From positions 1 through 32,671 of the forward strand of contig WRBO01000014.1 of the NCBI GenBank assembly GCA_009784555.1: DNA of 32,671 nt, written 5' to 3'. Shown piece by piece: positions 2,280 to 30,379 of the stretch. Source of the stretch: Bacillota bacterium (GTDB lineage Bacteria; Bacillota; Clostridia; Christensenellales; UBA1242). Positions within the stretch are counted from its first letter, which is position 1; the number at the start of each line of letters is the position of its first letter. The notes beneath the pieces were generated by a model that did not search any database, was not told where the DNA came from, and saw only the letters and a list, made by a program, of their open reading frames with translations. The position numbers and the translations under genes were made by a program.

Positions 2280-2873
2280 ATGAAAAAACTAGTGATGGTT
2301 ATCATTATCCTGATACTACTTGTTGGGTCGGGTGTATCCATCCCGTTTTTGGCGGGAAACAATCCACCACCTCCGGAAAACGAAAATGGCGGATACGAAA
2401 ACGGTGGTAATGGAGGTTATGAAAATGGCCCCGACCCAACCCCAGAGCCACCGCCAGACCCAGAACCTGAACCCGACCCCGAGCCAGACCCTGACCCAAT
2501 CGTACACAATGTCGTGGGTCTATGGAGAATATCTAGGGTAGAGGTTGGCACCCGTACATGGCAACCTACGCACACAACTACATTTGCGCTAGGCAGCATC
2601 ACTTTTGCCGACGGCGGCTCCATGTTGGTGGACAAAAGTAACGACAGCTTGGTTATGGTTCCGCTCTATGCGTTTTTCAACCCAGGGATGAATATTAATT
2701 CTTTGGGGGATATTGTGAATTTGAACCCACAATCATTTGAAAATTCATCGTGGATTCGCAACGGTGATACGATGACTGTCGGGGATGTCTTGGTGTACAA
2801 TATCGTCTTTGACGGGGACAACAGGTTGAGGCTATATAATAATGAATCCAGGATTGACTTGGTTCGGGGGTAG
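2280..2873 (+). CDS. Membrane-anchored protein with Pro/Asp/Glu linker and lipocalin-like domain
   Basis: The function is unknown. The 197-residue product starts with a short basic end (MKK) and a hydrophobic segment (about residues 4-25), with no lipobox cysteine, so it is probably an uncleaved or signal-peptidase I type export signal. Residues about 28-75 are a low-complexity linker rich in Pro, Asp, Glu, Asn and Gly (repeats of PEP and PDP). The remaining 120 residues begin VVGLWRISRVEVGTRTW and contain ITFADGGSM and RNGDTMTVGDVLVYN. This alternating-strand pattern is typical of small lipocalin-like or DUF4923-like beta domains. It lies between ylxR and ylxQ, which are normally adjacent. 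Spacing is three bases after ylxR and one base before ylxQ, so it is in the operon. Outside the signal it has one lysine and no cysteine. Confidence 0.8.
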   Translation: MKKLVMVIIILILLVGSGVSIPFLAGNNPPPPENENGGYENGGNGGYENGPDPTPEPPPDPEPEPDPEPDPDPIVHNVVGLWRISRVEVGTRTWQPTHTTTFALGSITFADGGSMLVDKSNDSLVMVPLYAFFNPGMNINSLGDIVNLNPQSFENSSWIRNGDTMTVGDVLVYNIVFDGDNRLRLYNNESRIDLVRG

Positions 2874-9022: not shown

Positions 9023-12000
9023 ATGGCGACAGCAAAACAAGTCAGAAGGCGCACGATGGTGGGATTACTCCTGGTCGCAATTATTGCGGTGGGTTTGGTC
9101 GGCTATATCGCCCTGGGACGGACATATACCGTCAGCTTCAATACACGCGGTGCGGAATATGTCCGCTCAATAAGTGTGTCTCCGCGACACCATCAAAACC
9201 TTGATGACGTGATTCCAATTAACCCTGGATACGTCTTCATGGGATGGATGCCCACAGAGACGAGTTACGGAACATACGTCAGCAACACGTCAGAACTAGG
9301 CAGCACCACCACACTCTTCGCCCATTGGGTGCCCGAAAATTTCCTGGCGCGGCTCTACGTCGACGGGATAAATTACCGCAACATCAATCTAATAGCAGGC
9401 CAGCATCTCGGCCACCTACCTAACGAAGATTGGTTTATCGAGGTCGACAGTCGTATGGCCTTTTCCCAATTTCTGGGGTGGGAGTTTTTTGATATCTTGG
9501 GCAACCGCAGTGAACTGCGCTGGACGGACGAATTCGAGGGGCCTCGCATGTGGGTATTGCACAGTAACTTGACATGGGACCAAATGACCCAACAATATGT
9601 GCCTGAACGTTCGCACGCAATCACCCCCGCTGAACCATTCCGTCCTGAACTGTACGACATGACATTCAATGCAATCGTCCAATGGCGTGATGTTGCATTG
9701 GTGTTCGAGGGTGGCGCAACCCAACCAATTACCGCATTACAATTCAACGACGAAATTGCTATGCCACGTTTCGTAAACACGATGCAACCAAACTTTGCGG
9801 GATGGCGCATGACACGCGTGAACAACGACCTGCACACCATGGGTACCGACAACTTGACTGGCTCGATTACATCTATCGTAAAACCGGGGCACACTTCGGG
9901 CTATGCTGGCACCGTGCGCGACTTGCGTAATCTTAACGAGATGTTTACACGCATCTATTCCGAGTTCGAGGTTCTAAACATCGACTCATTGCTTTACTAT
10001 GTTTCCCGACCATTGGCGGGTTTCCCAACAACACGTGCAATTCACTTCGAGCCTGTGTTCTGGAATGCTGACCGCGTTGTGGATTCCGACGACCCTCTTT
10101 ACAATCGCTCCATCACTCACTCGGCTCAATTCCTTATCCGTGGTTTGGATGGTGGTTTGACCGAAATCCCAACAACTACGGATGGTGACGCCCACCCAAG
10201 CACAACCAGCATCCCTGCACGCCTTGAACCTGGTGCCCGCGTCGTCCTGTACCGTCCGGCAACTGTTGCGGGACGTACATTCCGCTACTTCCAATATTTC
10301 GACGGCCAAGGCAACCTAATTCGCCTTGACGACACGGCGATGAGCTGGGGTATCTACCTACCGGGTCACACCGATTCCATTCTGCACCCAACACACGCAA
10401 CAATTTTCGAGGCTGTGTGGGACATCGCCGACCAAATCACAATAACGTTCGACTACGGTCGCACGGAATTTGGTACGGGCCTACGATTCATTAACTACAT
10501 TGAAACTGAACAAGGCTCCACAATAGGAACCCCGGTCGAGAACGAAACTGACGTGGTGACCAGCGTCACTCAATACATCGGCCAAGAAATAATTCTGCCT
10601 TCCGTTGCGATGTTCGCAATGGCAAACAGGAGCTTCTCTCACTGGGAAGACCCTAATGGTAACTTTGTTGGGGTTGCTGGACAAATCCACGTGGTGGCGG
10701 GCGACCTCATCGACCCTGAAACTGGTGGGTACACATTGGTCGCACGTTGGGTGGACAACCGTGCGAATTTTGCATTTGATTTGAACGGCGGCCGTGATTT
10801 CGCGCCGGACGTTTCCATCATGCGCGGAACTCCTGGACAATCAGTCAACATGCCCGAGGGTCAACCTATCCGCTACGGCTACAACTTTACTGGCTGGATG
10901 TTGGGCGACACTGTGGTCGGTCAAACGGTCACAATTCAAAACCGCCGCCAGGTTATCGTTGCTCAATGGGCACCGCGACCTGTAACAATCAATCTGAACT
11001 ACACATTTGTGGAAAACGGCATGGTGCGCGAGCGTCCGATTTCCATCAATGTCCCATTCGACAGCACAATTCAACTACGCCGTATTACAACTCCTGAATT
11101 TACCCAAAGCGCCCAACTGGTTGGATGGCGTTTCACCGACCGTTTGAACACACGTAATATGGACTTTGCACCAACGCAATCTCTGCGTATTGACGAGGCA
11201 TTCGCCGTGCGTGCAACTGGCTCGTTCGACGACACCGACTTGTTCACACGCGATAACGGAGTTATCAACGGCCGCGAGATTAAAGAAGGCCGTGACTTCG
11301 ACGTCACATTCTTCGGCGACATGGGTGAACACGTTGTGGGCGACAACTTCCACAATGGCACGGGCAACGTTCAACTGCGTTTCATGACACAACAATGGCG
11401 TGGGGGAATCCCTGGTCCTGATGGTGAACCTGGCTCTGGCCGTTCAAACACCGTATCACGTCAACAAATCTACACAATGATTAACAACACCGCGGGCGAA
11501 ACATTTGAACACTATCGTCGCCTGCAAATTACTCACGAACTTACCGGAGTTCTATTCATTCCTGACGCACTTGCGGGCTCAATGCTCTCAAATGCTGCTG
11601 GATGGACTTCTGTCTTTAACCCAAATACGGGTGACTTTACTGGCGGCTCATTGGGTCTGCCAAGCATCCACCACGACTTCACCCGCGACGGTGACGGCAA
11701 CACCGTTAACCTGCGTCTGTACCTGTGGAACGAAAACATGCGAATTTACCCCGTGTGGACTCCGCGAGAGGTCGAGGTCGAGGTCGTTCTGCCGCCTGTT
11801 CCAAATGGCGTAGACGAGGTCACTCCAACCATCCCATCAACATTCACGGGCGACCGCCGCGAACACGCATCCCTGATGTACGAACCTCTCTTCCGCGTGG
11901 CAACCGACCCAATCGAGAGCATCAACCCTGACACAGGTGCAACCGAAACACGTTTCCGCTTCAGCACCTGGAGCGCGCGCTTTGAATTCCGTCACCCAAC

Positions 12001-15000
12001 ACGTATGGTTGGTGGCGAGCGCGAATTACTGCACTACTTTGAACGCTCATGGACTCCTGACCGCTCTGGAACATTGTCCGCCACCGAACGAAACTGGTTC
12101 TTTAGTGTGTACAACGCCGCACCATGGGAATATGTCGGCGATGACGGTACATTGGTCGGGTTGGCTTTCCCTGTAACACGAATTGTTCTGACACGTGTCG
12201 TCCAAGACCTCACAACTTTCGTCATGCGCGTGGAAGACAGTGCCAACATGCACCCAACGCGTAACTACTTTGGTGTGGCAACAATGCCGTTCCAAGGGAA
12301 CGAGTCACTTCCAAACTACAGCCCATTTGGTTACACCGACGGTATTGGTTCGTTGTTCCCAAACATCCGTAACGAGGACAACATGGTCGACTTCCGCATC
12401 GGTGGGGTATTGCCGCGTCCTGACCTTGGCCCTAACGAGTACGAGGAATTCACTCCTGGCATGCGTGGCCTTCAAATTGATAACGACTTGCGTGCCGCCG
12501 CACAAACACGCGGACAACGTGTAAGCCACTTCCGTACTGCTGACGGTCAAATCTTCTTCCCAACAAACGAAAACACCCCTGTGATGGAAGTTCGCCTTCA
12601 CGGTGGTAACCCTGCTGGCGGCATCGTTGGCCCGGGTGCTGGTTTCCCAAACCTGCCTATCGTTGGTCACGCGGTCGAGGATGAACATGGCGTAATCCGC
12701 GACCACAGCGGCAATGAAATTGACCCTGACAACGTTCCTGCGGGCTTGCTTGCATTCATTAACGCTGACGTACTGGGCTCGGTTACATTGCAACCTGTCT
12801 TTACTGCGCTGTACTACCACGTCTTCATCTACTTTGAAACCGACGGCTCAAACATGCCGACCGATGTGCGCGAACGTCTGATGGACAACCCACACACCGA
12901 ATCCGTGCCAAACACCAACTACTTCCGCGTACGCGTTCCTGGCCGCTTTGGTGATGCTGGTACACCTGCTTCCGCTCCTGGTCTGAACAACATTGTCTTG
13001 AACACACCTGGCTTCACGGGTGCCCCTGGTTCCATTACTGGGCCTGGAACATTGTGGCGTGACATGCTGCAATCCCACTTCGGACACTTTGCACAACTAA
13101 ACATGCCAAACGTCGGCCCACGTGTTGACGGTACGGTCGTTCCAATGTTCGCATTGAACAGCAACCATTCGTTCAACATCGGCTCTGGAACTGGTCCTGG
13201 CCCTGGCTACACCCAACTCGACTTCAACTGGGCAACTGGTGCAAACTTCAACGAAATTCACCTCCACCTTGACTGGCGCCCACAACAAATCCAGGCACGC
13301 TTCCACTGGCAGAGCAGTAACGCTATCCAAATCTCACCTGCGACAAACATCGGATACTTTGGCTCAAACGTTAACCTCTGGGGTGACGACGACTTCCCAA
13401 CCAGTCCTCGTCGCCTTGGCTACACCCTCGAGGGATGGACAACCAACTCCACATTTGATGCACGCTTCGGATTTGTCGGCGCGTTAGGCGGAACGGTACA
13501 TGCTGGTGACCAACCTGGCGGAACTCCGCAAATCGGCAACTTCTACATGAACCCGCCTGCATTCGCCGAAGTCAACAGCACTTTCCTCAACGTCGACCTG
13601 TACGCCGCGTATCTGGGTCTACCAATGCCTGTCCAATTCATTCTGGTGGATGTGGATAACGCCGCCGCACGTCCGACATATGTACACAACGACGCATTCA
13701 GCACCGAAAACCGCTTCGGCCTTGCCGACCCGACCGAGGGGCCTGACTCCGCACGTAACGTGTTTACACCACAAAACATTTCGGGGATGGGAACTGGTCT
13801 TTGGGCTCTGAACCTGCCTGATGCACGTTTCGGCGACCAAATCAACCTTGACGAACGTCCAACCGCGTTCCACCACGGTGTCTCCGCCAACATCTTCTTC
13901 CAATACTGGTACTACAACACGTTCGAGGCCGAGGGCTCCGGATTTGTCCAGGTTCCTCGCCGTATCGTCCCAACATCTGCGGGATTGATATTCAACTTGA
14001 ATGACTTAAGTTTGATTGACCCAATCACAAACACATGGCGCAACAACCCATCGGTCTTCCAAATCCACTCACGCTTTACCCAAGGCGACACCCCATTCTT
14101 CGCCTTCGACACCAGCAACGCAATCACAGGCCGCGCCCGTAACAACGGCACGGTAGGGGGGACCAGTGTCTGGAACGAAGAACAACTAGGAAACAGTGTC
14201 AGCCAAATGCAAAACGGGGAAGACGGATTGCTGCGTGACATTCTCAACCTGCACGTTGCACCGGGCGATTACTTTGTTCCTATGATTGACCGTGCCGACC
14301 CAACGGGGTACACGGGCGACTACATCTTCCACGTCAACGACCGCGGAACAACACCAACACAACCGGGCGGGGCCGACGACTGGGCATTGCCATTCCACGT
14401 TAACGCTGAACGTACCGAACGTGTTGCAAACATCGACGTCACCGACGGGTTCAACATTCGCACAATCAACAACCCAATGAACCTGTACCAAACCCTGATT
14501 TACAACAGCAACCCTGCCTCTGGCCCTGTTGTGGATAACCGTTTCATCCGTTTCGGTTACGAACTAATAGGTTTCAGCGCAGTCACAAACGCTGGTCATG
14601 TGACCGACGAACACATCCGTGAAAGATACTTCTTCAGTCCAGCATTCATCACCAGTGTCGAGGGTGCGCAATTCTCGGCCGCTATGAACATTCCAACATT
14701 GACGGTGTCAAACAACACTTTGTTCCGTCACGCATTCATTCGCGCGGACGGTACGGGAATGGCTCCATCGGTTGTCCTACGTCCTATCTGGCGCGCGATG
14801 AACGTTGAATTGATGATGTTCATGGGCGACACAACGTTGGAACACACCGAACTGACAAACTGGCCACGTGATGTACTGGGAATGCCAACCTCTGCGGGCC
14901 AGCCTAACTGGACTGGGTTCCCATCCCAAGGTCGTCTTGTAACCACCTTCGAGGACGTAATCAATCTGCCACTACTTGACGTAGCGGCCGAGGACAGCGG

Positions 15001-18000
15001 TTACTTCCACACTGGATTCCGTTGGGCCGAAACACAATGGTATCTGAACAACACCCCTGGGTTCCCAATTGAATGGAACAACTTCCGTGATTACTTTGTT
15101 CGTCCGCTTGACACCGAACTTGCCCGCCGTGACTACAACCACGGCCTGCGCGAGAGCTGGCCAAAAATCTGGTTCGAGGCTCAATGGCAAGAAACCTTCA
15201 GTGTCACCGTCAACTTCCACATGGCACACCGTGACTTGGATACGGGCGACATGATTTTCACAAACCCTAACGAACTGCCGTCCGAGGCCCTCGAAACACG
15301 TATCGTCTCTATGGCACCAACACGAATTAACGTCGGTACGACCGCCAACCCTGTGTGGGAATGGAAAACACAATTAGTAGGCAGCTCGCTCTTCCTCATC
15401 ACCGAATTCCGCTTACCAAACTTGGATGACCTTGACCTCGATAACGGTCCCGACCTATACGGTCTGACATCACGCGGTTGGTACAGCCACCGCGGCCTGA
15501 CCGACGGCTTCCGCCTGGGGGCCGAGGGCGACATGCTACGTTTCCGTAACGGTGACCGTCAAACGGCATGGAACAACAACACTCCTGTGACATTCATTCC
15601 TGGCGGAATGGGCGGGGTAGTTCCATTTGAAACTGACCTATACCTCTTATATGACTACGCGCGCGGACACATTGAATTCCGCTCCGAGGGCGGCCCTGGC
15701 ACCCTCGTACCTCCACCAAGACAAAACGTACTCCAAGGCGAAGAAATCTTCTTCAATACCCAGGCCGAAACATCAATCATCCGCTACGGCCGCTCATTCC
15801 TTGGATGGCGCTTTGCTGGACACTTGACACCTACAACCGCGGGCACATCGGTCGTTGTTCCGTACCAACCATACTTGGATTGGGTCGCGGCAAACACATC
15901 ATCACACCACTCGCTGGAATTCCCATTCCCAATCTATACCGCGGTTAACCCATTCACCGTCCAATTTACCGCACTGCCGGTAATGGTTGTGAACGAAACC
16001 ACGGGCGAACTGGAACAACTCACCGACGGAAACGGTGACCCTGTATACCGCTTCCAAGACGGTGCAATCATCATCATGCAAGCCGTATGGCACGAGGTTC
16101 TGGTTCCAATCGTTTTCCACAACGATGCATCAATCCCTGGGGTAATCCAAGGCGACTTTGACGGCGTATCCGTTCTTTACGGAACACGTTTCCTTGACGC
16201 TGATGTTGACGGAAATGCTGACTTCCTGCCGTTCCTTCAAAACAACCACCCAATTCGTGCGGGCCACAGGTTCGAGGGTTGGTACTTCACACCAACCGCG
16301 TTCATGCCGAACCCAGTTGTTCAAAACCACCACGACGTTCAGTTATTTAGTGCCATTGACCCATCACGTAACGTGGTCGACGGGCCGAACTACCACCACA
16401 TGGTAGACAGCCAAGTTGCGGTAAATCTGCACGCCCGTTTCGTTCCAAACCACTTCAGGTTTAACTTCAACGCAAACCACAACGATGCAACGTTCCCGGC
16501 TGGAAACTCACGCCCAACTGCTACGGAAACTCTACCTGCATTCCCTGGTACTGGGTTTGAACGCGCCTACACATTCGGTTCACGTATCGACAACCTGCTG
16601 GATATCCAAATCGTTAACCCAATGGCACGTTTCGTTGGTTGGTCTCTGACTACTGACGATGTATCAAACGTCATGAACCCTGCATTGGGCGTGTCCGCCG
16701 TTCGCTTGGGCTCATCAAACGCCGCAACCTCGGACGAGTTCATCTTGGACGTTGACACGGCAATGCGCGCTGGAACGCCAATCGGAACAAACCCTGACGG
16801 CTCCTTGGTATTTGAAATCACCCTTCACGCAATCTGGTCCCAAGAAGAGGTCATGATTTCCTACATCGCGGGTGCTGGCGCAACCGGGGCAACAGTAGCC
16901 CAGGCCGCCTACCTCTTCGTCGACGGTATTCGTCACATTGTTGGCGGTGACAACGCAATGACCATCGGTGCTAACGCAATCGACCACCGCACATACGGTG
17001 TCATGGTCGTTGACGCAACTGGATTTGACCGTCCTGGTTACAACTTCTTGGGATGGCTCCCAACCCAGGCCGCTCGCGTCGTCCCTGGTACAAACCCATT
17101 GGGCAGATTCTTGGGGCACGGGACACTCGACCGAATTTTCTTCCCTGGCGAATTCCTGCCTTCAATCCGCGAGAGTATGACAATGGTCGCCGTATGGGTT
17201 CCACACGGGCCATTGACTGCAACACCTACATTGATTGCATCTAACGTATCTCTGGACGGCCTGGCCGAAAATTCAAAGAGCATCCACTCCATCGCCGCAA
17301 TCACCACACCAATCACAACCGCCGCACAAATCGTCTTGGTACCGCGCGGTGCGGAATTGGCTCGCAGTACAATCGTCGCAACAAACGCTGTCCACGTTGG
17401 ATTGCCTGCGCCATTAACGCGTGGGGGGGAAAGTGCCCGCCTTGCTCCTGGCGCAATCATCACCGCCGCATTGGAATGGGTATTCATCAACGATGGTCTG
17501 GTCGGATTTGACGGCCCAGTTGTTGGAAACATCATTACTGGCTCGGTAAACCCACACACAGGCGCGGTAATAAGTGCATTCCGCGAATACATCGTCGCCC
17601 AAGGTAACTTGGTACTAACATTCATGGACGGCAGCACAACTAACGTCGACACGGACGTGCCATATGTCTTCACACACCGCACGACAAAATACCGCTTCGA
17701 CGCTTACGGACAAACATGGGGCATCTTGTATACTGCGGGCTCAACTCGAACTCTGCTCGGGTTCCCATCCGCACGTGCTTCGGATGCTGTCGGAACAATC
17801 GGCCCTGTTGAAATGGCTGGCGTGACTGCATTGGCACCGTACGCATTCGCTTACTTGAACTCTGGCATTACAACAATCAATGTGACTGGCGTACAAACAA
17901 TTCCGTCACGCGCGTTCTACAACATCAACAACGTTGCGACTCTGCGCCTGCCTAACAACCCTGACTTGGTAATCGCACACGACTTTGTCGCTGGTTTCAA

Positions 18001-21000
18001 CCCTGCATTGGCCAGTGTACGCTTCGGCACAACAAACGAAGAAGTTCTCGAACTCAACGGCGACCGCACAATCGAAACATTTGAATTCATGGGCGTCCCA
18101 AGCATGTTGGTCGAAACAATCGACGGCGACATCAGTCGCATCATCTACACATTGACCAGTGCCGATTTCATGACAACAGAGGTCAACATGGACTTCACAA
18201 CGGGCGAGGTTCAAATCAATGAATACGCTCTGTGGAACTTCGTGCCAATTCAAATGACCGAATTGCGTATCGGCGGCTTCACACCACTCCTGGGAACCCA
18301 GGAAGGTCTGCGCCGCGCGCACTTCTTCGGAACGGCATACGCGTACTTGATGGCCTCATTGCCACACACACTCCAAGAAATCTTCGTGGGCGAAAACATC
18401 CGCGAACTTGACTGGACACTGGTCGCATCGCTGACATTGCCGCGCGGTATGACAATTGAATACGACCCAACGGCATCACGTATTCGCTTGGCTGGACACG
18501 CTGGCATCCTGTCGGTCGTCGGCGGGGCAAACGGTTTCCCTGTCTTCCTGTCTACCTTGGCATTGGCAAACACATACCAAAACGCCACGGCATCTAACCT
18601 CGCACGTATCGAAGGGAACAGCCGTTTCCAAACACGCGCAAAGACTCTCACATTCAACAGCGGCGACTCAAACGACGAATTCGCTCTTGGTGCATTGGAA
18701 TTCGAGCACATGACCGCATGGGGAATGCCATTCACGTTCCCTGCACCGCGTGCTGACTTTGTTCGCCCTGGCTATGCATTCATCGGATGGAAATTGGTAA
18801 TGAACGCCGACCAAATCGCGGCTGGCACACCGCCATACATCATCTTCCCGCGCGGCGACACACGCACATTGGCCATGACATTCACAAACACAACAATGTA
18901 CGTCCAAAGCACGGCAACATTCATCGCTCAATGGCGTGTTGTCTACGCCGAATTCATCGGCCTAGAACGTGTCAGCCAAGCCTTTGAAATGTTCGACGAA
19001 ATAGAGGTCAACGCAAACATCGGTATCGCAAACGCCGCTGGCGACGACGTGACACGCATGTCATCGGGCCACAGCGCAGACATGAGCATCCACGGAACAC
19101 GTTTCTTCATGGCACACACTGACCAGGGTTTCATCGGGCCGTCTGGACACCACTATGGAATCGTCGGCTGGACAACGGTTGCCCGTTCCGCAACATTCGA
19201 CATTGACGAATGGATGTGGGACAACGCGGCTGACGCCACACGCATCATGCCAATCCACCCACAACACATGACACCTGCACAACGCCTTGCATGGTTGCAC
19301 ATCTTGGACGAGGACAACTTCGTAACCTTCTACGCGCTGTATGGTCGCCGCTCGCCTAACATCGAATTCGTGGCAAGTACAATGACCCACGACATCGGCA
19401 CAATGGTAATTAACGGTGTCGCCGCACAAAGGAACACAACGATAGAGTTCGAGCAAAACGGCCACATGACAATCCCTGCCTGGGGCCCATACATCCCTGC
19501 GGGTCAAAACGCGGGCTTCCTGCGCCCTGTGGTAGAGGTTGCTGCACGTGGCTTCATGATGACCGCTGGCATGTTGACGGGGGACATCTACATCGGTGAA
19601 CACGTCCGCGCCATCCGCGAGAGCGCGTTCGAGGAAACCCACGCAAGCAGCCTGACCTTCGCAATCAACGAAACTCGCTTCGATGCACACCGTCAAAACC
19701 CTGCAACACCAAGCTTCGTTATCGAACAAAACGCATTTGCGCGTAACGTGGTAATGGGCGGGGAAATCATCATCCCATCACACACAGAGGTCATCAGTCA
19801 ACGTGCCTTCATCGAAAACCACGCCGTAACGGCGATAGGGATGAGTTCGGGCACTCCACGCCTAACAACAATCGGTGCCTCTGCGTTCGAGGGCAGCTAT
19901 CTTATCCAAGAATTCTTTGTCCTGCCGCGCACCCTGCACACAATTGGACTGTTCGCGTTCACGCTGACAAACATCTCCGCGTTTGAAACCGAAAACGACA
20001 TCGACGACATGGCCGCCGCGGCATACCACTTCCGTTCTGGAATTGGGGCATACGACGGTATGGCAATGTTCGCCGTTGACGGCCACTTGGTAATCCACGA
20101 GGAAAGCAACGACCGCTTCTCCCTGATGCTCTACGCTCCGGGCGCACAAGACGCTGTCTTCAACGTCGGTACACTATGGAACACATTGCCTGAACTGACA
20201 CACATAGGCAACTACGCATTCAGCCGCCACGAATGGGTACGCTCAATCGTCCTGCCTGACGCAATCACATTGGGCCACGGTGTCTTCGCCTACGCATTCT
20301 CGCTTCTGCACGTCTACGTTGAACACGAAAACCCAATTGGCTCTGGCGGATTGCTGACAAATGTAACGTCCAGTATGAACGCATTCTACGGCCTGCCAAG
20401 TGTCTCAATCCGTCTGGTAACAATCGAGGACCCATTGGTCGCAATGCCGCGCATCTTCCTGCCGCTCGACATCTCCAACGTCCACAACTGGCGTATCTTC
20501 CTGGCCGAACAAATGATGCTCGACCCAACATATGTCCAAGTCGTCAATGCGGGCGTCGGCCGTCACCCTGACCACGTCGCCCTTGATATGGCCGCCGCTC
20601 AAATCGTTATCAACATGATAACGGCTCTGGGGCCTGCCGCTGACCTGACAATCGGCGATGCCGCGGCCGTCGCCGCCGCGCGCGATGCCTTCGACGATCT
20701 CACCACCTTCCAACAAGACCACGTTACAAACATCGCATTCCTCCTTGCCGCTGAAATGCGCATCATGGAACTGGTGCTAGAGGGTATCCAAGCCGATGTC
20801 GACGCCGTCGTTGCTATGGTCGCCGCATTGTACGACCGCGTATTGACCCTGGCTGACGAGGCCGATGTCATCGCCGCCCGTGCCGCGTTCGATGCACTAC
20901 CGGAAGAAGCAGGCCTACTGGTAAACCTCGCGGGCCTTGACCTTGTCATCACAATCGCCGAGGGTCAAATCCAAGCTCTCCATGACCAGGCCGCCGCCGA

Positions 21001-21961
21001 CCTCGTCATCGCAATGATTGATGCAATCGCGGACTATGCCGACATCATGGACGCTGACCTTGCGGGCATCCGCGCCGCGTTCAACGCTCTAACACCTGCA
21101 CAACGCGCTCTGGTCACAAACCTCGCTGACCTTGTCGCGGCCGAAGAAAACGTCAAGGAACTCTATGACCAGGCCGCCGCTGACATCGTCATCGCCCTCA
21201 TCGATGGTATTGCTGACTACGCAAACATCACCGATGCTGACTTGGTTGCCATCCGTGCCGCATTTGATGCGCTGACGGACGCACAACGCGCCCTGGTTGC
21301 GAACATAGATGACCTATACGCGGCCGAGGAACTGTACTACGACACAACCCGCGCAAATGCCGTACTGAACCTGATTATGGCTCTGGACCGCAACGACTTG
21401 ACCATCGCCGACCTTGACGACATTCTGGCCGCTCGCGCCGCGTTCGATGCACTGACCACTGAACAACTTGAACTCATTGACGCAACCATGCTTCTGGGCA
21501 TCCTTGCAACCGCCGAACAATACGTCCAAGACTTGTACGACACGGCCGCCGCTGACATCGTCATCGCTATGATTGATGACATTCTGGATGCTGACGATGA
21601 CGACTTCTTGGACGCCGTTGTCGCCGTCCGCGCCGCCTTTGACGCACTAACCGACGACCAACAGGCCCTGGTTACAAACATCGACCTGCTCATCGCAATA
21701 GAAGAAACTATCGAGGAACTCAACCACGCCCTCGCCGTCGCACTTATGATTGCCGACCTTGAACGCGTTCTGACGGCCGACGATGTGGACGAAGTTCTTG
21801 CCGCCCGTGCCGCATTCGATGCACTGAACCAACTGCAAATCGACTTCCTCATCGACCTTGACCTGTTCGATTTATTAGAGGCAACTTTGATTGACGCCGA
21901 AGAACAAATTGCCGACTACATCGATGACAACGGGGACGACGATGACGGGGACGACGACTAA
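9023..21961 (+). CDS. Giant exported InlB B-repeat / leucine-rich-repeat surface protein, 4312 residues
   Basis: Probable cell-surface adhesin or scaffold; no specific ligand is recognisable. Order of parts: basic start MATAKQVRRR and a hydrophobic segment (about 13-31) for export or anchoring. Next is a long array of InlB B-type (Listeria-Bacteroides) repeats, residues about 33-2728. These show the GY-x-F-x-GW motif (GYVFMGWM about 69, GYNFTGWM about 619, GYNFLGWL about 2672) and closing x-A-x-W strands (IVAQWAPR, MVAVWVPH). BspA-like leucine-rich repeats follow at about 2927-3156 and 3443-3800, separated by another B-repeat (GYAFIGWK). Seven helical repeats at about 3846-4300 carry the motif AARAAFDALT. 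The tail is almost only Asp. I see no LPxTG, SLH, dockerin or choline-binding module. Lysine is almost absent (about ten) and cysteine is absent. GAGGAG at 9011-9016 supports the ATG. Confidence 0.92.
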   Translation: MATAKQVRRRTMVGLLLVAIIAVGLVGYIALGRTYTVSFNTRGAEYVRSISVSPRHHQNLDDVIPINPGYVFMGWMPTETSYGTYVSNTSELGSTTTLFAHWVPENFLARLYVDGINYRNINLIAGQHLGHLPNEDWFIEVDSRMAFSQFLGWEFFDILGNRSELRWTDEFEGPRMWVLHSNLTWDQMTQQYVPERSHAITPAEPFRPELYDMTFNAIVQWRDVALVFEGGATQPITALQFNDEIAMPRFVNTMQPNFAGWRMTRVNNDLHTMGTDNLTGSITSIVKPGHTSGYAGTVRDLRNLNEMFTRIYSEFEVLNIDSLLYYVSRPLAGFPTTRAIHFEPVFWNADRVVDSDDPLYNRSITHSAQFLIRGLDGGLTEIPTTTDGDAHPSTTSIPARLEPGARVVLYRPATVAGRTFRYFQYFDGQGNLIRLDDTAMSWGIYLPGHTDSILHPTHATIFEAVWDIADQITITFDYGRTEFGTGLRFINYIETEQGSTIGTPVENETDVVTSVTQYIGQEIILPSVAMFAMANRSFSHWEDPNGNFVGVAGQIHVVAGDLIDPETGGYTLVARWVDNRANFAFDLNGGRDFAPDVSIMRGTPGQSVNMPEGQPIRYGYNFTGWMLGDTVVGQTVTIQNRRQVIVAQWAPRPVTINLNYTFVENGMVRERPISINVPFDSTIQLRRITTPEFTQSAQLVGWRFTDRLNTRNMDFAPTQSLRIDEAFAVRATGSFDDTDLFTRDNGVINGREIKEGRDFDVTFFGDMGEHVVGDNFHNGTGNVQLRFMTQQWRGGIPGPDGEPGSGRSNTVSRQQIYTMINNTAGETFEHYRRLQITHELTGVLFIPDALAGSMLSNAAGWTSVFNPNTGDFTGGSLGLPSIHHDFTRDGDGNTVNLRLYLWNENMRIYPVWTPREVEVEVVLPPVPNGVDEVTPTIPSTFTGDRREHASLMYEPLFRVATDPIESINPDTGATETRFRFSTWSARFEFRHPTRMVGGERELLHYFERSWTPDRSGTLSATERNWFFSVYNAAPWEYVGDDGTLVGLAFPVTRIVLTRVVQDLTTFVMRVEDSANMHPTRNYFGVATMPFQGNESLPNYSPFGYTDGIGSLFPNIRNEDNMVDFRIGGVLPRPDLGPNEYEEFTPGMRGLQIDNDLRAAAQTRGQRVSHFRTADGQIFFPTNENTPVMEVRLHGGNPAGGIVGPGAGFPNLPIVGHAVEDEHGVIRDHSGNEIDPDNVPAGLLAFINADVLGSVTLQPVFTALYYHVFIYFETDGSNMPTDVRERLMDNPHTESVPNTNYFRVRVPGRFGDAGTPASAPGLNNIVLNTPGFTGAPGSITGPGTLWRDMLQSHFGHFAQLNMPNVGPRVDGTVVPMFALNSNHSFNIGSGTGPGPGYTQLDFNWATGANFNEIHLHLDWRPQQIQARFHWQSSNAIQISPATNIGYFGSNVNLWGDDDFPTSPRRLGYTLEGWTTNSTFDARFGFVGALGGTVHAGDQPGGTPQIGNFYMNPPAFAEVNSTFLNVDLYAAYLGLPMPVQFILVDVDNAAARPTYVHNDAFSTENRFGLADPTEGPDSARNVFTPQNISGMGTGLWALNLPDARFGDQINLDERPTAFHHGVSANIFFQYWYYNTFEAEGSGFVQVPRRIVPTSAGLIFNLNDLSLIDPITNTWRNNPSVFQIHSRFTQGDTPFFAFDTSNAITGRARNNGTVGGTSVWNEEQLGNSVSQMQNGEDGLLRDILNLHVAPGDYFVPMIDRADPTGYTGDYIFHVNDRGTTPTQPGGADDWALPFHVNAERTERVANIDVTDGFNIRTINNPMNLYQTLIYNSNPASGPVVDNRFIRFGYELIGFSAVTNAGHVTDEHIRERYFFSPAFITSVEGAQFSAAMNIPTLTVSNNTLFRHAFIRADGTGMAPSVVLRPIWRAMNVELMMFMGDTTLEHTELTNWPRDVLGMPTSAGQPNWTGFPSQGRLVTTFEDVINLPLLDVAAEDSGYFHTGFRWAETQWYLNNTPGFPIEWNNFRDYFVRPLDTELARRDYNHGLRESWPKIWFEAQWQETFSVTVNFHMAHRDLDTGDMIFTNPNELPSEALETRIVSMAPTRINVGTTANPVWEWKTQLVGSSLFLITEFRLPNLDDLDLDNGPDLYGLTSRGWYSHRGLTDGFRLGAEGDMLRFRNGDRQTAWNNNTPVTFIPGGMGGVVPFETDLYLLYDYARGHIEFRSEGGPGTLVPPPRQNVLQGEEIFFNTQAETSIIRYGRSFLGWRFAGHLTPTTAGTSVVVPYQPYLDWVAANTSSHHSLEFPFPIYTAVNPFTVQFTALPVMVVNETTGELEQLTDGNGDPVYRFQDGAIIIMQAVWHEVLVPIVFHNDASIPGVIQGDFDGVSVLYGTRFLDADVDGNADFLPFLQNNHPIRAGHRFEGWYFTPTAFMPNPVVQNHHDVQLFSAIDPSRNVVDGPNYHHMVDSQVAVNLHARFVPNHFRFNFNANHNDATFPAGNSRPTATETLPAFPGTGFERAYTFGSRIDNLLDIQIVNPMARFVGWSLTTDDVSNVMNPALGVSAVRLGSSNAATSDEFILDVDTAMRAGTPIGTNPDGSLVFEITLHAIWSQEEVMISYIAGAGATGATVAQAAYLFVDGIRHIVGGDNAMTIGANAIDHRTYGVMVVDATGFDRPGYNFLGWLPTQAARVVPGTNPLGRFLGHGTLDRIFFPGEFLPSIRESMTMVAVWVPHGPLTATPTLIASNVSLDGLAENSKSIHSIAAITTPITTAAQIVLVPRGAELARSTIVATNAVHVGLPAPLTRGGESARLAPGAIITAALEWVFINDGLVGFDGPVVGNIITGSVNPHTGAVISAFREYIVAQGNLVLTFMDGSTTNVDTDVPYVFTHRTTKYRFDAYGQTWGILYTAGSTRTLLGFPSARASDAVGTIGPVEMAGVTALAPYAFAYLNSGITTINVTGVQTIPSRAFYNINNVATLRLPNNPDLVIAHDFVAGFNPALASVRFGTTNEEVLELNGDRTIETFEFMGVPSMLVETIDGDISRIIYTLTSADFMTTEVNMDFTTGEVQINEYALWNFVPIQMTELRIGGFTPLLGTQEGLRRAHFFGTAYAYLMASLPHTLQEIFVGENIRELDWTLVASLTLPRGMTIEYDPTASRIRLAGHAGILSVVGGANGFPVFLSTLALANTYQNATASNLARIEGNSRFQTRAKTLTFNSGDSNDEFALGALEFEHMTAWGMPFTFPAPRADFVRPGYAFIGWKLVMNADQIAAGTPPYIIFPRGDTRTLAMTFTNTTMYVQSTATFIAQWRVVYAEFIGLERVSQAFEMFDEIEVNANIGIANAAGDDVTRMSSGHSADMSIHGTRFFMAHTDQGFIGPSGHHYGIVGWTTVARSATFDIDEWMWDNAADATRIMPIHPQHMTPAQRLAWLHILDEDNFVTFYALYGRRSPNIEFVASTMTHDIGTMVINGVAAQRNTTIEFEQNGHMTIPAWGPYIPAGQNAGFLRPVVEVAARGFMMTAGMLTGDIYIGEHVRAIRESAFEETHASSLTFAINETRFDAHRQNPATPSFVIEQNAFARNVVMGGEIIIPSHTEVISQRAFIENHAVTAIGMSSGTPRLTTIGASAFEGSYLIQEFFVLPRTLHTIGLFAFTLTNISAFETENDIDDMAAAAYHFRSGIGAYDGMAMFAVDGHLVIHEESNDRFSLMLYAPGAQDAVFNVGTLWNTLPELTHIGNYAFSRHEWVRSIVLPDAITLGHGVFAYAFSLLHVYVEHENPIGSGGLLTNVTSSMNAFYGLPSVSIRLVTIEDPLVAMPRIFLPLDISNVHNWRIFLAEQMMLDPTYVQVVNAGVGRHPDHVALDMAAAQIVINMITALGPAADLTIGDAAAVAAARDAFDDLTTFQQDHVTNIAFLLAAEMRIMELVLEGIQADVDAVVAMVAALYDRVLTLADEADVIAARAAFDALPEEAGLLVNLAGLDLVITIAEGQIQALHDQAAADLVIAMIDAIADYADIMDADLAGIRAAFNALTPAQRALVTNLADLVAAEENVKELYDQAAADIVIALIDGIADYANITDADLVAIRAAFDALTDAQRALVANIDDLYAAEELYYDTTRANAVLNLIMALDRNDLTIADLDDILAARAAFDALTTEQLELIDATMLLGILATAEQYVQDLYDTAAADIVIAMIDDILDADDDDFLDAVVAVRAAFDALTDDQQALVTNIDLLIAIEETIEELNHALAVALMIADLERVLTADDVDEVLAARAAFDALNQLQIDFLIDLDLFDLLEATLIDAEEQIADYIDDNGDDDDGDDD
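9119..17206 (+). repeat. InlB B-repeat (Flg_new-like) array, protein-level repeat
   Basis: These roughly 2700 residues contain many diverged beta-grasp units of about 70-200 residues. Each unit ends in a strand with a buried Trp: FAHWVP, AIVQWR, FEAVWD, VARWVDN, IVAQWAPR, YPVWTPR, LRPIWRAM, FEAQWQET, IMQAVWHEV, LHAIWSQEE and MVAVWVPH, among about fourteen I could mark. Many units have longer loops than the classic Listeria repeat. The repeats are diverged at the DNA level, so recent duplication is not evident here. Confidence 0.8.
17801..18490 (+). repeat. BspA-like leucine-rich repeat block 1
   Basis: Within the giant protein, residues about 2927-3156 contain LRR_5-type units: VTALAPYAFAYLNSGITTIN, VQTIPSRAFYNINNVATLRL and VIAHDFVAGFNPALASVRF. 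The I/L-x-x-x-A-F pattern is typical of BspA-type repeats found in surface proteins of gut and oral bacteria. Confidence 0.72.
19350..20420 (+). repeat. BspA-like leucine-rich repeat block 2
   Basis: Residues about 3443-3800 of the giant protein. Recognisable units include VRAIRESAFEETHASSLTF, TEVISQRAFIENHAVTAIGM, LTTIGASAFEGSYLIQEFFV, LHTIGLFAFTLTNISAFE and LTHIGNYAFSRHEWVRSIVL. Spacing is about 22-25 residues, with inserts. Confidence 0.78.
20560..21920 (+). repeat. Seven alpha-helical repeats of 60-66 residues (AFDALT repeats)
   Basis: The signature R-x-A-F-D/N-x-L occurs at about 20681, 20880, 21070, 21253, 21435, 21629 and 21806, that is 60-66 residues apart. It is flanked by A-A-A-D-x-V-I-A-x-I and by L-V-T-N-x-x-x-L-x-x-A-E. 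Copies 3, 4 and 6 begin with nearly the same DNA: 21172-21195 and 21544-21567 are identical over 24 bases, and 20989-21012 differs at two. Similar A-Y-D-A-L-T repeats occur in stalks of other Bacillota surface proteins. Their likely role is as a spacer. Confidence 0.8.
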
Positions 21962-22494
21962 TGCAAATCATCTCTGGCAAATACCGCGGTAAAAAATTGA
22001 TGAATATCTTTAACGACACAACGCGCCCGACAACCGGGCGCGTTCGTGAAAATGTATTCAACATAATTGCTGAACGAATACGCGATGCTACTGTGCTCGA
22101 CCCCTTTGCTGGAACTGGGGCAAACGCGGCCGAATGCATTTCCCGTGGCGCGAAAACCGTAATCGTCAACGACAGCAACCCTGTGGCGGTTGATGCGATA
22201 AACAAAAACATGAAATCCATCGGCGGCCCTGCGGCAACTCAAATGGATGCAATTGATTTAATTCACAAACTACGCGACATGAAATTCGATATCGTCTTCC
22301 TCGACCCGCCGTATGACGGCAATATGGGCCCGCGCATCATTGAACTTCTAACAAAATTCGACATGGTTCGCAACGGCGGGGTAATCGTCTTTGAAACGGA
22401 CTCCGCACACGAACCTATCACCTTCGACCACTACAACGTTCGCGAAAAAACATACGGACGCGCAAAAATCTACTTCCTACACAAACCCAATTAA
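21961..22494 (+). CDS. rsmD: 16S rRNA m2G966 methyltransferase RsmD
   Basis: SAM-dependent methyltransferase that modifies G966 of 16S rRNA in the assembled small subunit. The 177-residue product has the diagnostic N terminus MQIISGKYRGKKL and TRPTTGRVRENVFNII. It has the SAM-binding loop VLDPFAGTGANAAECISRGA (about 44-63) and the catalytic DPPY motif in FLDPPYDG. Length is normal (180-190). The ATG at 21961 overlaps the stop of the giant gene (TAATG). A GGGG at 21947-21950 is the only weak ribosome-binding site, so translation is probably coupled to the upstream gene. It overlaps the convergent ylbJ-like gene by 18 bases, with no terminator between them. Confidence 0.94.
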   Translation: MQIISGKYRGKKLMNIFNDTTRPTTGRVRENVFNIIAERIRDATVLDPFAGTGANAAECISRGAKTVIVNDSNPVAVDAINKNMKSIGGPAATQMDAIDLIHKLRDMKFDIVFLDPPYDGNMGPRIIELLTKFDMVRNGGVIVFETDSAHEPITFDHYNVREKTYGRAKIYFLHKPN

Positions 22495-23382
22495 CAACAT
22501 CCCAACCAAAACCGACAAAACGGTGTGCGTAAACTTGAACAACAAATAAAATCGAAATCGCATGCCTAATTTCCCCAAAAACAAAAACCCCTGCATCCCA
22601 ACACACAACCCACCGAACGACAAAAACGCAACCGCCAACAAAAACTGATGGGTCAATGGAATTGCTAGATTTGACGCCTTAAACACACCCGCCGTCATCT
22701 CCAAAAATCCCGACAAAACCGTATCGGCAATATGTGCCAGGGAAAACAACACATCCAACTGATTCCCAACGACAAAGAATATAACAATCAACCCACCAAC
22801 CGACAGGACAGAGGCTATCGCCGACTGCAACGCAACCGAAATAACGGAATCTGGAACCTTCCTCTGAATGACGGCCGCCTGTATGGGGGGATGTTTTTTG
22901 AAAAAGACCAAACCATTCAACAACCCTCCAATAATCGTGGATAATAAAATTATCCACCCCAGCCGTGTGTCACCAAACAAAACTGTACCAACGGTGGCAA
23001 TCACAAAAATCGGCCCGGGGGTGGACGTAAACGTCGCGGTATGAATCGCGCGCTCACGGCTCATCTCGCCGCGCTCGACTAACTCCAACAACATCCGCGA
23101 ACTGGTCGGATACCCCCCCAACAAACTCAATCCCCACACCGCCAACACGGGATTGCGCCTGCCGCTAAAAAATCCAGACACGGTAAGCAGGGAAGTAATA
23201 AAAAAAAACGGGAATAATACGGGCATCACATTGCGGCCGAACAACATGACCCCGCGCCACGATGCGTCAATAAAACCCTCTACATCAACAAAAACCAAGG
23301 CAACAAACCCAAAACTCATAAACGGCCCCAACCACTTTTTCACACCTATGTGTACGATAACATTTGCCAAAAAAGCCGCCAT
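22477..23382 (-). CDS. ylbJ: YlbJ-like nucleoside-recognition (Gate) domain membrane protein
   Basis: Polytopic membrane protein; YlbJ is required for sporulation in B. subtilis and its transport activity is unknown. The 301-residue product has about seven to eight hydrophobic segments. The recognisable stretch is VMPVLFPFFFITSLLTVSGF, then LSLLGGYPTSSRMLLELVERG and FTSTPGPIFVIATVGTVLFG. This matches the YlbJ pattern of P-F-F-I, S-G-Y-P and T-N-x-x-G-P-x-F-I. The start is uncertain: ATG at 23382 gives a family-like N terminus, while ATG at 23409 would add nine residues. Neither has a clear ribosome-binding site. Presence alone does not prove sporulation. It is divergent from the phosphorylase gene and converges on rsmD. 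Confidence 0.75.
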   Translation of the reverse strand: MAAFLANVIVHIGVKKWLGPFMSFGFVALVFVDVEGFIDASWRGVMLFGRNVMPVLFPFFFITSLLTVSGFFSGRRNPVLAVWGLSLLGGYPTSSRMLLELVERGEMSRERAIHTATFTSTPGPIFVIATVGTVLFGDTRLGWIILLSTIIGGLLNGLVFFKKHPPIQAAVIQRKVPDSVISVALQSAIASVLSVGGLIVIFFVVGNQLDVLFSLAHIADTVLSGFLEMTAGVFKASNLAIPLTHQFLLAVAFLSFGGLCVGMQGFLFLGKLGMRFRFYLLFKFTHTVLSVLVGMLLIGFV

Positions 23383-23402
23383 CGTGCTACATTTGGTACC
23401 AA
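23364..23402 (+). promoter_or_regulatory. Possible promoter and palindromic operator between ylbJ and the phosphorylase
   Basis: TTGCCA (23364-23369) and TACATT (23388-23393) are 18 bases apart on the plus strand. A perfect ten-base palindrome TTGGTACCAA (23393-23402) covers the expected start site. It is also just upstream of the minus-strand ylbJ start. Promoter strength is modest by consensus and the operator role is inferred. Confidence 0.35.
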
Positions 23403-23435
23403 CCAACATATTAAAAAAGGACAGAGGTATAAAAC

Positions 23436-24215
23436 ATGTTAAGAAAAAGCGACTTCCCAATCTTGGAATACGATGCGGTATCCGCCCCAATCGTGACCCC
23501 CGACCACTACATTGAAAAGGTCGAAAACTGGCGCAAAATCACGCGCTGTGTTATTACATACTTTTCGGATATTGTGGAACTGCTGGAACGGGCCCAAGTC
23601 ATTAACCAGGTCTTCCGCCTACGAACCGAGGGCTACCGTCCCCGTATCTACGAAATGAAGGTCGGCAACGAATACGTATTCGTCATGGCGGCACCCGTGG
23701 GCGCGCCCCAGGCCGCTCGCATCGTGGAATGTCTGGCTGCAATGGGCGTCAAAAAATTCATGATAAGCGGCGGCGCGGGAACCATCAACGACGATGTGAC
23801 CCGTGACTATGTCCTGGTGCCGGCGGCGGCAACAAGGGACGAGGGGACAAGCTACCATTACCTCCCACCATCACGCGACGTCCAAATGAACCCGCGCGTG
23901 CTTTCCTCAATCGAAAAAACTCTCACGGCCGAGGGTGTTAAATTCGTCAAAATCAAAACCTGGACGACCGACGCTATCTTCCGCGAAACAATTGACAAGG
24001 TCGAATTGCGCAAGGCCGAGGGCTGCTCAACCGTTGAAATGGAATGTTCCGCATTCTACTCGGTCGCGGCGCACCTGGGGTTTCTTTGCGGTCAACTCTT
24101 GTATGCGGGTGATAAATTAACAAAAGAAGGTTGGGATTACCGTGACTGGCACACCCGCGGCGACAAACGCACAATGCTCTTTGACCTTTCGGTCAAATGC
24201 TTGATGAATCTATAG
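23436..24215 (+). CDS. Nucleoside phosphorylase (uridine/purine nucleoside phosphorylase family)
   Basis: Salvage enzyme that splits nucleosides with phosphate into base and ribose-1-phosphate. The 259-residue product belongs to the PNP_UDP_1 fold. It has FVMAAPVGAPQAARIVE near the phosphate site, KKFMISGGAGTIN (the conserved G-x-x-G-x-I-N), VPAAATRDEGTSYHYLPPS, WTTDAIFRET (about 176-185) and STVEMECSAFYSVA (about 199-212). In that last motif the M-E-x-E/C segment contacts ribose. These motifs are closest to uridine phosphorylase, but base specificity cannot be fixed. AGAGG at 23423-23427 is a plausible ribosome-binding site. The gene is divergent from ylbJ, whose Gate domain is also a nucleoside-recognition type, a suggestive pairing. 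Confidence 0.85.
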   Translation: MLRKSDFPILEYDAVSAPIVTPDHYIEKVENWRKITRCVITYFSDIVELLERAQVINQVFRLRTEGYRPRIYEMKVGNEYVFVMAAPVGAPQAARIVECLAAMGVKKFMISGGAGTINDDVTRDYVLVPAAATRDEGTSYHYLPPSRDVQMNPRVLSSIEKTLTAEGVKFVKIKTWTTDAIFRETIDKVELRKAEGCSTVEMECSAFYSVAAHLGFLCGQLLYAGDKLTKEGWDYRDWHTRGDKRTMLFDLSVKCLMNL

Positions 24216-28894: not shown

Positions 28895-30379
28895 ATGGCA
28901 CGCAAGGAACTCGTAAAACGCGCATCAAAAAACCCCATCGCCGAGACAGAGGCAAAGGCGGAAAAATCTGTCCCTGTCAAAAAGGCTCCTGCAAAGGCTC
29001 CCGCCCCAAAAAAGGAGGAGGCTGTAAAAACCCCCCCCAAGAAAAAACAAGAAAAGAAAACCCCCCCCCAAGGCGTTGCCCTCGGGCCAAACGCTCGGCC
29101 TGCGGCCTCGGCCCGAACTATTACGAATAAATCCACCCAAGAAAAAAAAGTGGCGGTAAAAAAAGAACCCGCCCCAAAAAAGGTCGCCGAGAAAAAACCC
29201 GCCCCTAAAAAAGAAGTAAAAAAACCCGAACCAAAAAAAGAAGTTGCCGCAAAGAAAGAAAAACCAACCACCGCCCCAGTAACCGAAACCCCACAACCAA
29301 CCTGCGAATTCGGCTTCTCAAAACCTGACCTCTCAACCCTCTTGCGCCGTGTAATAGACGTTTCTCGGGTAAAGGGCCATGTGGACGGGGACAAGGTCTT
29401 CATCGGCTTCATGGAAAAGGGCGCGGATGCCGAGGATATCCAAAGGGTTCGCGACGCGCTAGAGGCCGCAAAGATTAAAATCAAACAGGGCGACGACGCC
29501 TCAAAAACAAAAGAAGAAGACGTCGAAAAGATTATAGCAGCCGCCAGCGTAGACGACAGCGTCAAAAGCTACCTGCGCGAAATCGGCCGCGTGCCGCTTT
29601 TAACTAGTGAAGAAGAAGTCGAGGTCGCCAAAAAAATGATGGAAGGATGCGAGGACGCTAAAAAACGCCTTAACCAGGCCAACTTGCGTCTGGTCGTCCA
29701 CATCGCAAAACGCTACACGGGTCGAACGTCATTACACTTCCAAGACCTCATCCAAGAAGGGAACATCGGACTCATGCGCGCCGTGGAAAAATTCGACTAC
29801 CGCCGCGGCTTCCGTTTCTCAACATACGCGACCTGGTGGATTCGCCAATCTATAACGCGCGCAATCGCGGACCAGAGTCGTCTTATCCGCATCCCCGTCC
29901 ACATGGTGGAAACGATTAACCGCCTGACTAAAACCAGTCGCATGTTGCAACAGGAATTCGGCCGCGAACCAACCACCGCCGAAATCGCCGAGGCCATGGG
30001 CGTAACCGAAGCCAAGGTCGAAGAAATCCGCAGGATAAGCCAAGACACAACAAGCTTGGACAGTCCCCTGGGCGAGGACGGCGACGGTGTTATTGCCGAC
30101 ACATTCAAAGACGAGAATATCGAGGACCCTTCAACCCGCGCCCAACTGATAATGTTGCGCAATCAATTGAAAACGGTAATAAACAGTCTGACTCCCCGCG
30201 AACAAAAAGTAATCCTTCTGCGCTACGGAATCGACGACGGAAAACCCCGAACTCTGGAAGAGGTCGGCAAAGAATTCCAAGTCACCCGTGAGCGTATCCG
30301 TCAAATCGAGGCAAAGGCCCTACGCAAACTCCGCAACCCAATGAGGCTCCGTCTACTGAAAGACTTTACAGAGGAGTGA
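28895..30379 (+). CDS. rpoD: Primary sigma factor RpoD/SigA with long Lys/Pro/Ala-rich N terminus
   Basis: Directs RNA polymerase to housekeeping promoters. The 494-residue product has region 1.2 ([19 protein letters not shown], about 210-228). Region 2 is the clearest part: [31 protein letters not shown] and [20 protein letters not shown]. Region 3 begins [13 protein letters not shown]. Region 4 contains [14 protein letters not shown] and the helix-turn-helix [20 protein letters not shown]. Residues about 1-130 are a basic, low-complexity extension (K/A/P-rich) that includes C8 and C9 tracts (29031-29038 and 29061-29069). It precedes a small region-1.1-like domain (about 140-190). GGAG at 28878-28881 precedes the ATG. 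The last codons hold the -35 of the next gene. Confidence 0.95.

Follow-up and report, generated by a model that had tools for sequence, protein, structure and literature searches.

Lysine has been purged from the whole exported proteome, not from one protein only, in the genus that yielded the window (the complete stretch of 32,671 nucleotides analysed here), and the membrane itself is the boundary of the purge. We hold with moderate confidence that the extracytoplasmic proteins of this genus lost their lysines, mostly to arginine, through life in surroundings that are both strongly alkaline and chemically reactive, an alkaline compartment of an invertebrate gut being the most likely.

Composition of the giant surface protein

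The initial annotation had counted about ten lysines and no cysteine in the 4312 residues of a surface protein, with a lysine-free run of about 1290 residues between codons 754 and 2048. Our count returned exactly 10 and 0, with lysine at codons 5, 287, 754, 2048, 2115, 2752, 2889, 3207, 3257 and 4045, and a gap of 1293 residues (Table 1). The probability of finding 10 or fewer lysines in this protein is about 1e-123 at the lysine frequency of the genome's cytosolic proteins, and about 1e-70 at the cytosolic K:R ratio. From the position-specific base frequencies of the gene itself, about 111 lysines and about 72 cysteines are expected, whereas the number of arginines, almost all of them encoded by CGT or CGC, is close to the 238 expected from the same frequencies. 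With lysine and cysteine far below this expectation and arginine in agreement with it, the avoidance is specific to the two residues. A-rich codons other than those for lysine are plentiful (AAC, 230; GAA, 143; CAA, 119), and lysine makes up 5-12% of the cytosolic neighbours, so that the earlier view of the deficit as something other than a genome-wide base or codon effect is upheld by both the base-frequency expectation and the neighbouring genes.

Table 1. Features of the giant surface protein and of the second exported protein in the window
Feature	Position	Strand	Description
Giant exported surface protein	9023..21961	+	Open ORF, 4312 aa, 10 Lys, 0 Cys, 243 Arg
N-terminal signal/anchor of giant	9023..9118	+	Hydropathy; one hydrophobic segment from residue 7; Lys5 in cytoplasmic n-region
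Listeria-Bacteroides (InlB B-type) repeat, PF09479	9125..9325	+	Profile match; another at 10772-10933
Longest Lys-free stretch in giant	11285..15163	+	Residues 755-2047, 1293 aa
BspA-type leucine-rich repeats, PF13306	19721..20023	+	Profile match
C-terminal acidic helical repeats, then Asp-rich tail	20600..21958	+	Translation read by eye; e.g. AAADIVIAMIDAIADYADI...DALTPAQRALVTN
Second exported protein of window	2280..2873	+	Lys 2, 3 (signal) and 119 only; 0 Cys

The matches of the giant to its two repeat profiles score 63.8 bits for PF09479 (curated cut-off, 27) and 56.1 bits for PF13306 (curated cut-off, 27.7). Further giants of the parent genome are similar, one of 3850 aa having 14 Lys, 241 Arg and 0 Cys and one of 2515 aa having 5 Lys, and the single lysine noted earlier outside the signal of the second exported protein is Lys119. 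Four other observations were made in the window and its parent genome: (i) the stop codon of the giant and the ATG of an RsmD-like gene overlap by one base (TAATG) at window position 21961, an arrangement that suggests translational coupling; (ii) a YlbJ-like sporulation membrane protein, scoring below its curated cut-off, is encoded at window 22477-23490 and, in a 1.1-Mb genome, suggests that sporulation is either retained or decaying; (iii) RpoD (window 28895-30379; 12% Lys overall) is extended at its N-terminus by about 140 residues rich in Lys, Ala and Pro; and (iv) a 929-aa anchored protein of the parent genome (L026:3127-5916) consists almost entirely of RCC1 repeats (PF25390/PF00415), which is unusual for a bacterial surface protein.

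Extent of the purge in the genus and across the membrane

The comparison of lysine and arginine in exported and cytoplasmic proteins that had been proposed at the outset was carried out on the window together with about 360 kb of its 1.12-Mb parent genome (G000), on the four available genus-mates (the genus thus being G000-G004) and on relatives, all of them draft MAGs that were partly sampled and in which genes were called by a simple codon-score script. With exported proteins assigned by hydropathy in place of a trained signal-peptide predictor, which can be wrong for individual proteins while the group differences are large, the exported proteome proved to be depleted throughout: (i) the median K/(K+R) of the strict exported set is 0.10 in the parent genome and 0.07 in the four genus-mates, as compared with 0.54-0.62 for the cytosolic proteins of the genus, (ii) in the other genera of the family the exported median is 0.74 and no protein falls below 0.2, (iii) values below 0.2 are found for 11/15 exported proteins of the parent genome and 13/14 of the genus-mates, against 0/24 in the family outside the genus and 0/8 in the order outside the family, and (iv) the cytosolic medians of all groups compared lie between 0.54 and 0.71. 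The exported proteins of the parent genome therefore do not have the normal lysine content that had been named as counting against selection. Its cytosolic proteins contain 7.3% Lys, while the mature parts of its solute-binding proteins, subtilase, RCC1-repeat protein, CotH-like protein and most of its lipoproteins contain 0-1.3% Lys and 4-9% Arg. Orthologous SBP_bac_3 proteins have 0-0.4% Lys and 3-7% Arg in the genus, and 3-10% Lys elsewhere in the order in most of those read cleanly. Solute-binding proteins of Oscillospiraceae were considered as further cases and set aside, several being low in lysine but low in arginine too, which is a different pattern. A search of the genus for prophage, intended for a comparison of virion proteins, found no portal protein.

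Exported lysine is normal in the sister genera G007 and G017. The RpoD tree puts them, weakly supported, beside the genus or inside it, and the purge may accordingly have arisen once they had split off or have been reversed later. As a separate feature of this small-genome family, LysA is absent nearly throughout the sampled genomes (G000-G021), and the only complete one in the genus (G004:C18) is possibly a contaminant.

In nine membrane or anchored proteins, including SecD, RseP, an FtsX-like permease and two single-pass surface proteins, the cytoplasmic segments (957 aa) contain 79 Lys and 69 Arg and the outside segments (2764 aa) 20 Lys and 198 Arg (Fisher p 9e-21); in SecD, RseP and the single-pass surface proteins, lysines occur on cytoplasmic segments only. 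Columns that hold lysine in the penicillin-binding protein (PBP) of the family turn mainly to arginine in the genus, while the lysines of the SxxK and KTG motifs are invariant. Signal peptidase I has one outside lysine in 203 residues, located in the motif ffvKRmiamdgD, which we take to be the catalytic position expected of LepB-type peptidases. As these lysines are kept and the others lost, lysine has been removed wherever removal was possible.

Most of the apparent lysine-rich exceptions among exported proteins turned out to be mis-started cytosolic genes. Those that do still bear lysine include a class A PBP, a D,D-carboxypeptidase, a polysaccharide deacetylase (G000) and a few lipoproteins. 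The class A PBP, with 7-9% Lys, is encoded beside a SigK-like sporulation sigma factor gene (L360:9266-11662 in G002 and L363:8456-10837 in G004), and the D-alanyl-D-alanine carboxypeptidase (S11; L364:4916-6196 in G004), with 33 Lys and 14 Arg, is possibly a sporulation (DacF-like) enzyme. Sporulation members of these three enzyme families act between forespore and mother cell, away from the surroundings, and exceptions of this type would fit a rule of exposure. A lipoprotein-like gene beside the PBP gene (L018:2476-3411 in G000 and L356:18897-19655 in G001), with 5-7% Lys, 9% Arg and no clear family, conforms to no rule that we know.

Proposed alkaline surroundings and a second purged lineage

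Compared with the family and normalised to the cytosol, the outer proteins shift (log2) by -1.9 for Lys in the parent genome and -3.0 in the genus-mates, and by -1.4 and -1.2, respectively, for Cys; in the genus-mates, Asp (-0.7), Glu (-0.5) and Tyr (-0.2) decrease as well, and Arg (+1.0), His (+1.0), Gln (+0.5) and Asn (+0.4) increase, with some loss of Asp, Glu and Tyr and a gain of Arg and His in the parent genome too. The high-alkaline M-protease of alkaliphilic Bacillus KSM-K16 is lower in Asp, Glu and Lys and higher in Arg, His, Asn and Gln (PMC8153356), and other alkaline enzymes have gained Arg and lost Cys and Tyr (PMC3059134). All seven alkaline signs (Lys, Asp and Glu down; Arg, His, Asn and Gln up) are seen in the genus-mates, Gln being flat in the parent genome. 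High pH alone does not force the purge, since the plasmid-borne proteins of Bacillus (Alkalihalophilus) pseudofirmus OF4 are shifted only mildly (median K/(K+R) 0.55 outside versus 0.64 inside) and most of its exported proteins keep 2-5% Lys. The Mrp antiporter subunit MnhB is common in alkaliphiles; it was found in 0/5 genomes of the genus, which counts against reading these bacteria as alkaliphiles, in 0/12 of other genera of the family, and in 4/5 of the purged lineage of the termite MAG described below.

An alkaline cause predicts the purge in an unrelated bacterium that lives in an alkaline place, and this prediction was put to the test. The P1 hindgut compartment of termites is termed highly alkaline in the paper describing the MAGs concerned (PMC7024585), and the paunch of soil-feeding termites reaches up to pH 12 (PMC8124324). 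Emb289P1bin94 (G060; L169), recovered from this compartment of the hindgut of Embiratermes neotenicus, was among the RpoD matches in named genomes, the best of which share about 55% identity with the protein of the genus along most of its length; its habitat had decided the choice before any of its proteins was inspected. Most of its exported proteins contain 0-1% Lys and 4-9% Arg, with 6.1% Lys in the cytosol, and K/(K+R) is below 0.2 in 8/10 of its exported proteins versus 0/9 in two other named Clostridia, Mobilisporobacter and Eubacterium MSJ-21; in addition, at least seven further genomes near it have PBPs whose K/(K+R) is at or below about 0.2. Well-supported branches of the RpoD tree separate this lineage from the genus of the window, and on this tree the purge arose separately in each. 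With one named case, the link to habitat is suggestive, and an alkaline or termite habitat for the genus itself, whose records carry no habitat, would follow by analogy with this MAG as the model.

The lysine side chain has a pKa of about 10.5. Outside the membrane at high pH, lysine would be largely unprotonated, losing its charge and becoming able to attack quinones, carbonyls and humic matter as a nucleophile; cysteine, as thiolate, would carry the same liability, and arginine would stay charged and inert. A pH-controlled cytoplasm would spare cytosolic proteins as well as those parts of membrane proteins that face inwards. Alkaline humic guts also hold phenolics, which an alkaliphile in the laboratory does not encounter; under alkaline conditions, phenolics become oxidised to quinones and bind protein nucleophiles (PMC6272983, PMC12692759). 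The depletion of both lysine and cysteine is as expected if nucleophilicity matters. Charge loss and chemical reactivity would jointly constitute the selected harm, the two halves not being separable here, and we favour this joint explanation because OF4 is only mildly shifted and both residues are depleted. More tentatively, outer proteomes may repeatedly evolve to be nearly lysine-free, with cysteine avoided too, as a defence in guts that are alkaline, humic or rich in quinones and where unprotonated amines would be chemically modified, catalytic lysines and sheltered proteins (perhaps those of the forespore intermembrane space) being exempt; if so, K/(K+R) of the outer proteome would be an indicator of such habitats that needs nothing but sequence.

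Maintenance of charge at high pH alone, with lysine giving way to arginine because it is uncharged above about pH 10.5 and with no reactive chemistry involved, would likewise account for the seven residue shifts, which match single-enzyme alkaline adaptation in sign, for the convergence of the termite P1 MAG and for the mild shift of OF4 in the same direction. We nevertheless judge it rather unlikely, as the loss is nearly absolute, even where lysine is tolerated elsewhere, cysteine falls too, and OF4 retains its lysine in most exported proteins.

Other explanations and comparison with known systems

Selection against lysine outside the cell, first proposed from the giant, is strongly supported by an effect that spans the proteome, follows topology, sets this genus apart from the rest of its family and has arisen convergently. 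Of the causes then listed, chemical modification of amines survives as part of the preferred explanation; sortase-type amine cross-linking does not, given that no sortase (PF04203) was found in the five genus genomes (incomplete MAGs), and sortase pilins and wall anchoring were rejected on the same ground; Lys-directed proteolysis found no positive evidence and is disfavoured as leaving the joint shift of Cys, Asp/Glu, Arg and His unexplained. More broadly, a Lys-specific protease or amine-modifying enzyme outside the cell, whether the bacterium's own, a host's or a neighbour's, would select against exposed lysine in a manner specific to the outer face and to Lys over Arg, and a secreted subtilase is encoded that would be a candidate if it cut at Lys. 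Such an enzyme is an improbable cause: the genus is without sortase, buried or near-wall lysines should be spared and yet the SecD and RseP ectodomains are purged, neither the loss of Cys, Asp and Glu nor the gain of His is predicted, and the same enzyme would be required in two unrelated lineages.

Evasion of ubiquitination by bacteria that live in eukaryotic cytosol without exposed lysine could draw on the lysine deserts known from ubiquitin and Pup systems (PMC10665810) and on the small genome of 1.1 Mb. It is very improbable, as equally small genomes of the family have normal exported lysine, the loss of Cys and the gain of Arg, His and Gln are left unexplained, and the convergent purge was seen in a MAG of 3.5 Mb that derives from a gut-lumen metagenome. 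Still harder to credit is economy, whereby a lysine auxotroph would omit lysine from exported proteins that it cannot recycle: LysA is missing in 4/5 genus genomes, but equally so in the rest of the family, where exported lysine is normal. In the genus, cytosolic lysine is unreduced (7-8%), and lysine is plentiful in the cytoplasmic segments of the very polypeptides that are purged outside. Auxotrophy was rejected, the family-wide loss of LysA not tracking the purge. An artefact of base composition or codon bias, in favour of which nothing was found, can be dismissed, since the base frequencies of the giant gene predict about 111 lysines where 10 are present, the cytosolic genes on these contigs show nothing unusual, and the purge is equally strong in genus-mates at 38-45% GC and in the window at 51%, so that GC is not the driver.

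Our full-text literature searches found no paper reporting a lysine purge of the outer proteome. That one amino acid can be nearly removed from one side of the membrane, across a proteome and within a single genus, and again elsewhere, makes this a natural experiment in how external chemistry shapes proteins. The external environment of uncultured cells would become simple to read from their genomes, the topology of membrane proteins would gain a natural marker, and the Lys-to-Arg changes would form a catalogue from which to build enzymes resistant to alkali or amine reagents.

Four known systems bear a likeness to the purge. In the positive-inside rule, basic residues likewise favour the cytoplasmic side, but the rule applies to Lys and Arg together, whereas here Arg is raised outside and Lys alone is excluded. 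Single alkaline enzymes (M-protease, alkaline cellulases and mannanases) change in the same direction, with Lys, Asp and Glu down and Arg, His, Asn and Gln up (PMC8153356, PMC3059134), although modestly and one enzyme at a time, while here the removal of Lys is near-complete, extends to the whole outer proteome and is limited by topology. The lysine deserts of the ubiquitin and Pup systems share long Lys-free stretches with Arg retained (PMC10665810), but are cytoplasmic or nuclear and tied to tagging, whereas those described here lie on the outer side of the membrane, and nothing implicates a tagging system of this sort. Finally, the giant resembles InlB B-repeat and BspA-LRR surface proteins in its PF09479 and PF13306 matches, its large size and its N-terminal signal/anchor. 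Loss of lysine as a property of the B-repeat fold was rejected, because many unrelated exported families share the loss and because B-repeat proteins are not depleted regardless of host, an outcome that had been considered at the outset: members in other hosts have lysines, Listeria InlB in the B-repeat itself. The depletion belongs to the host lineage rather than to the B-repeat or BspA-LRR families.
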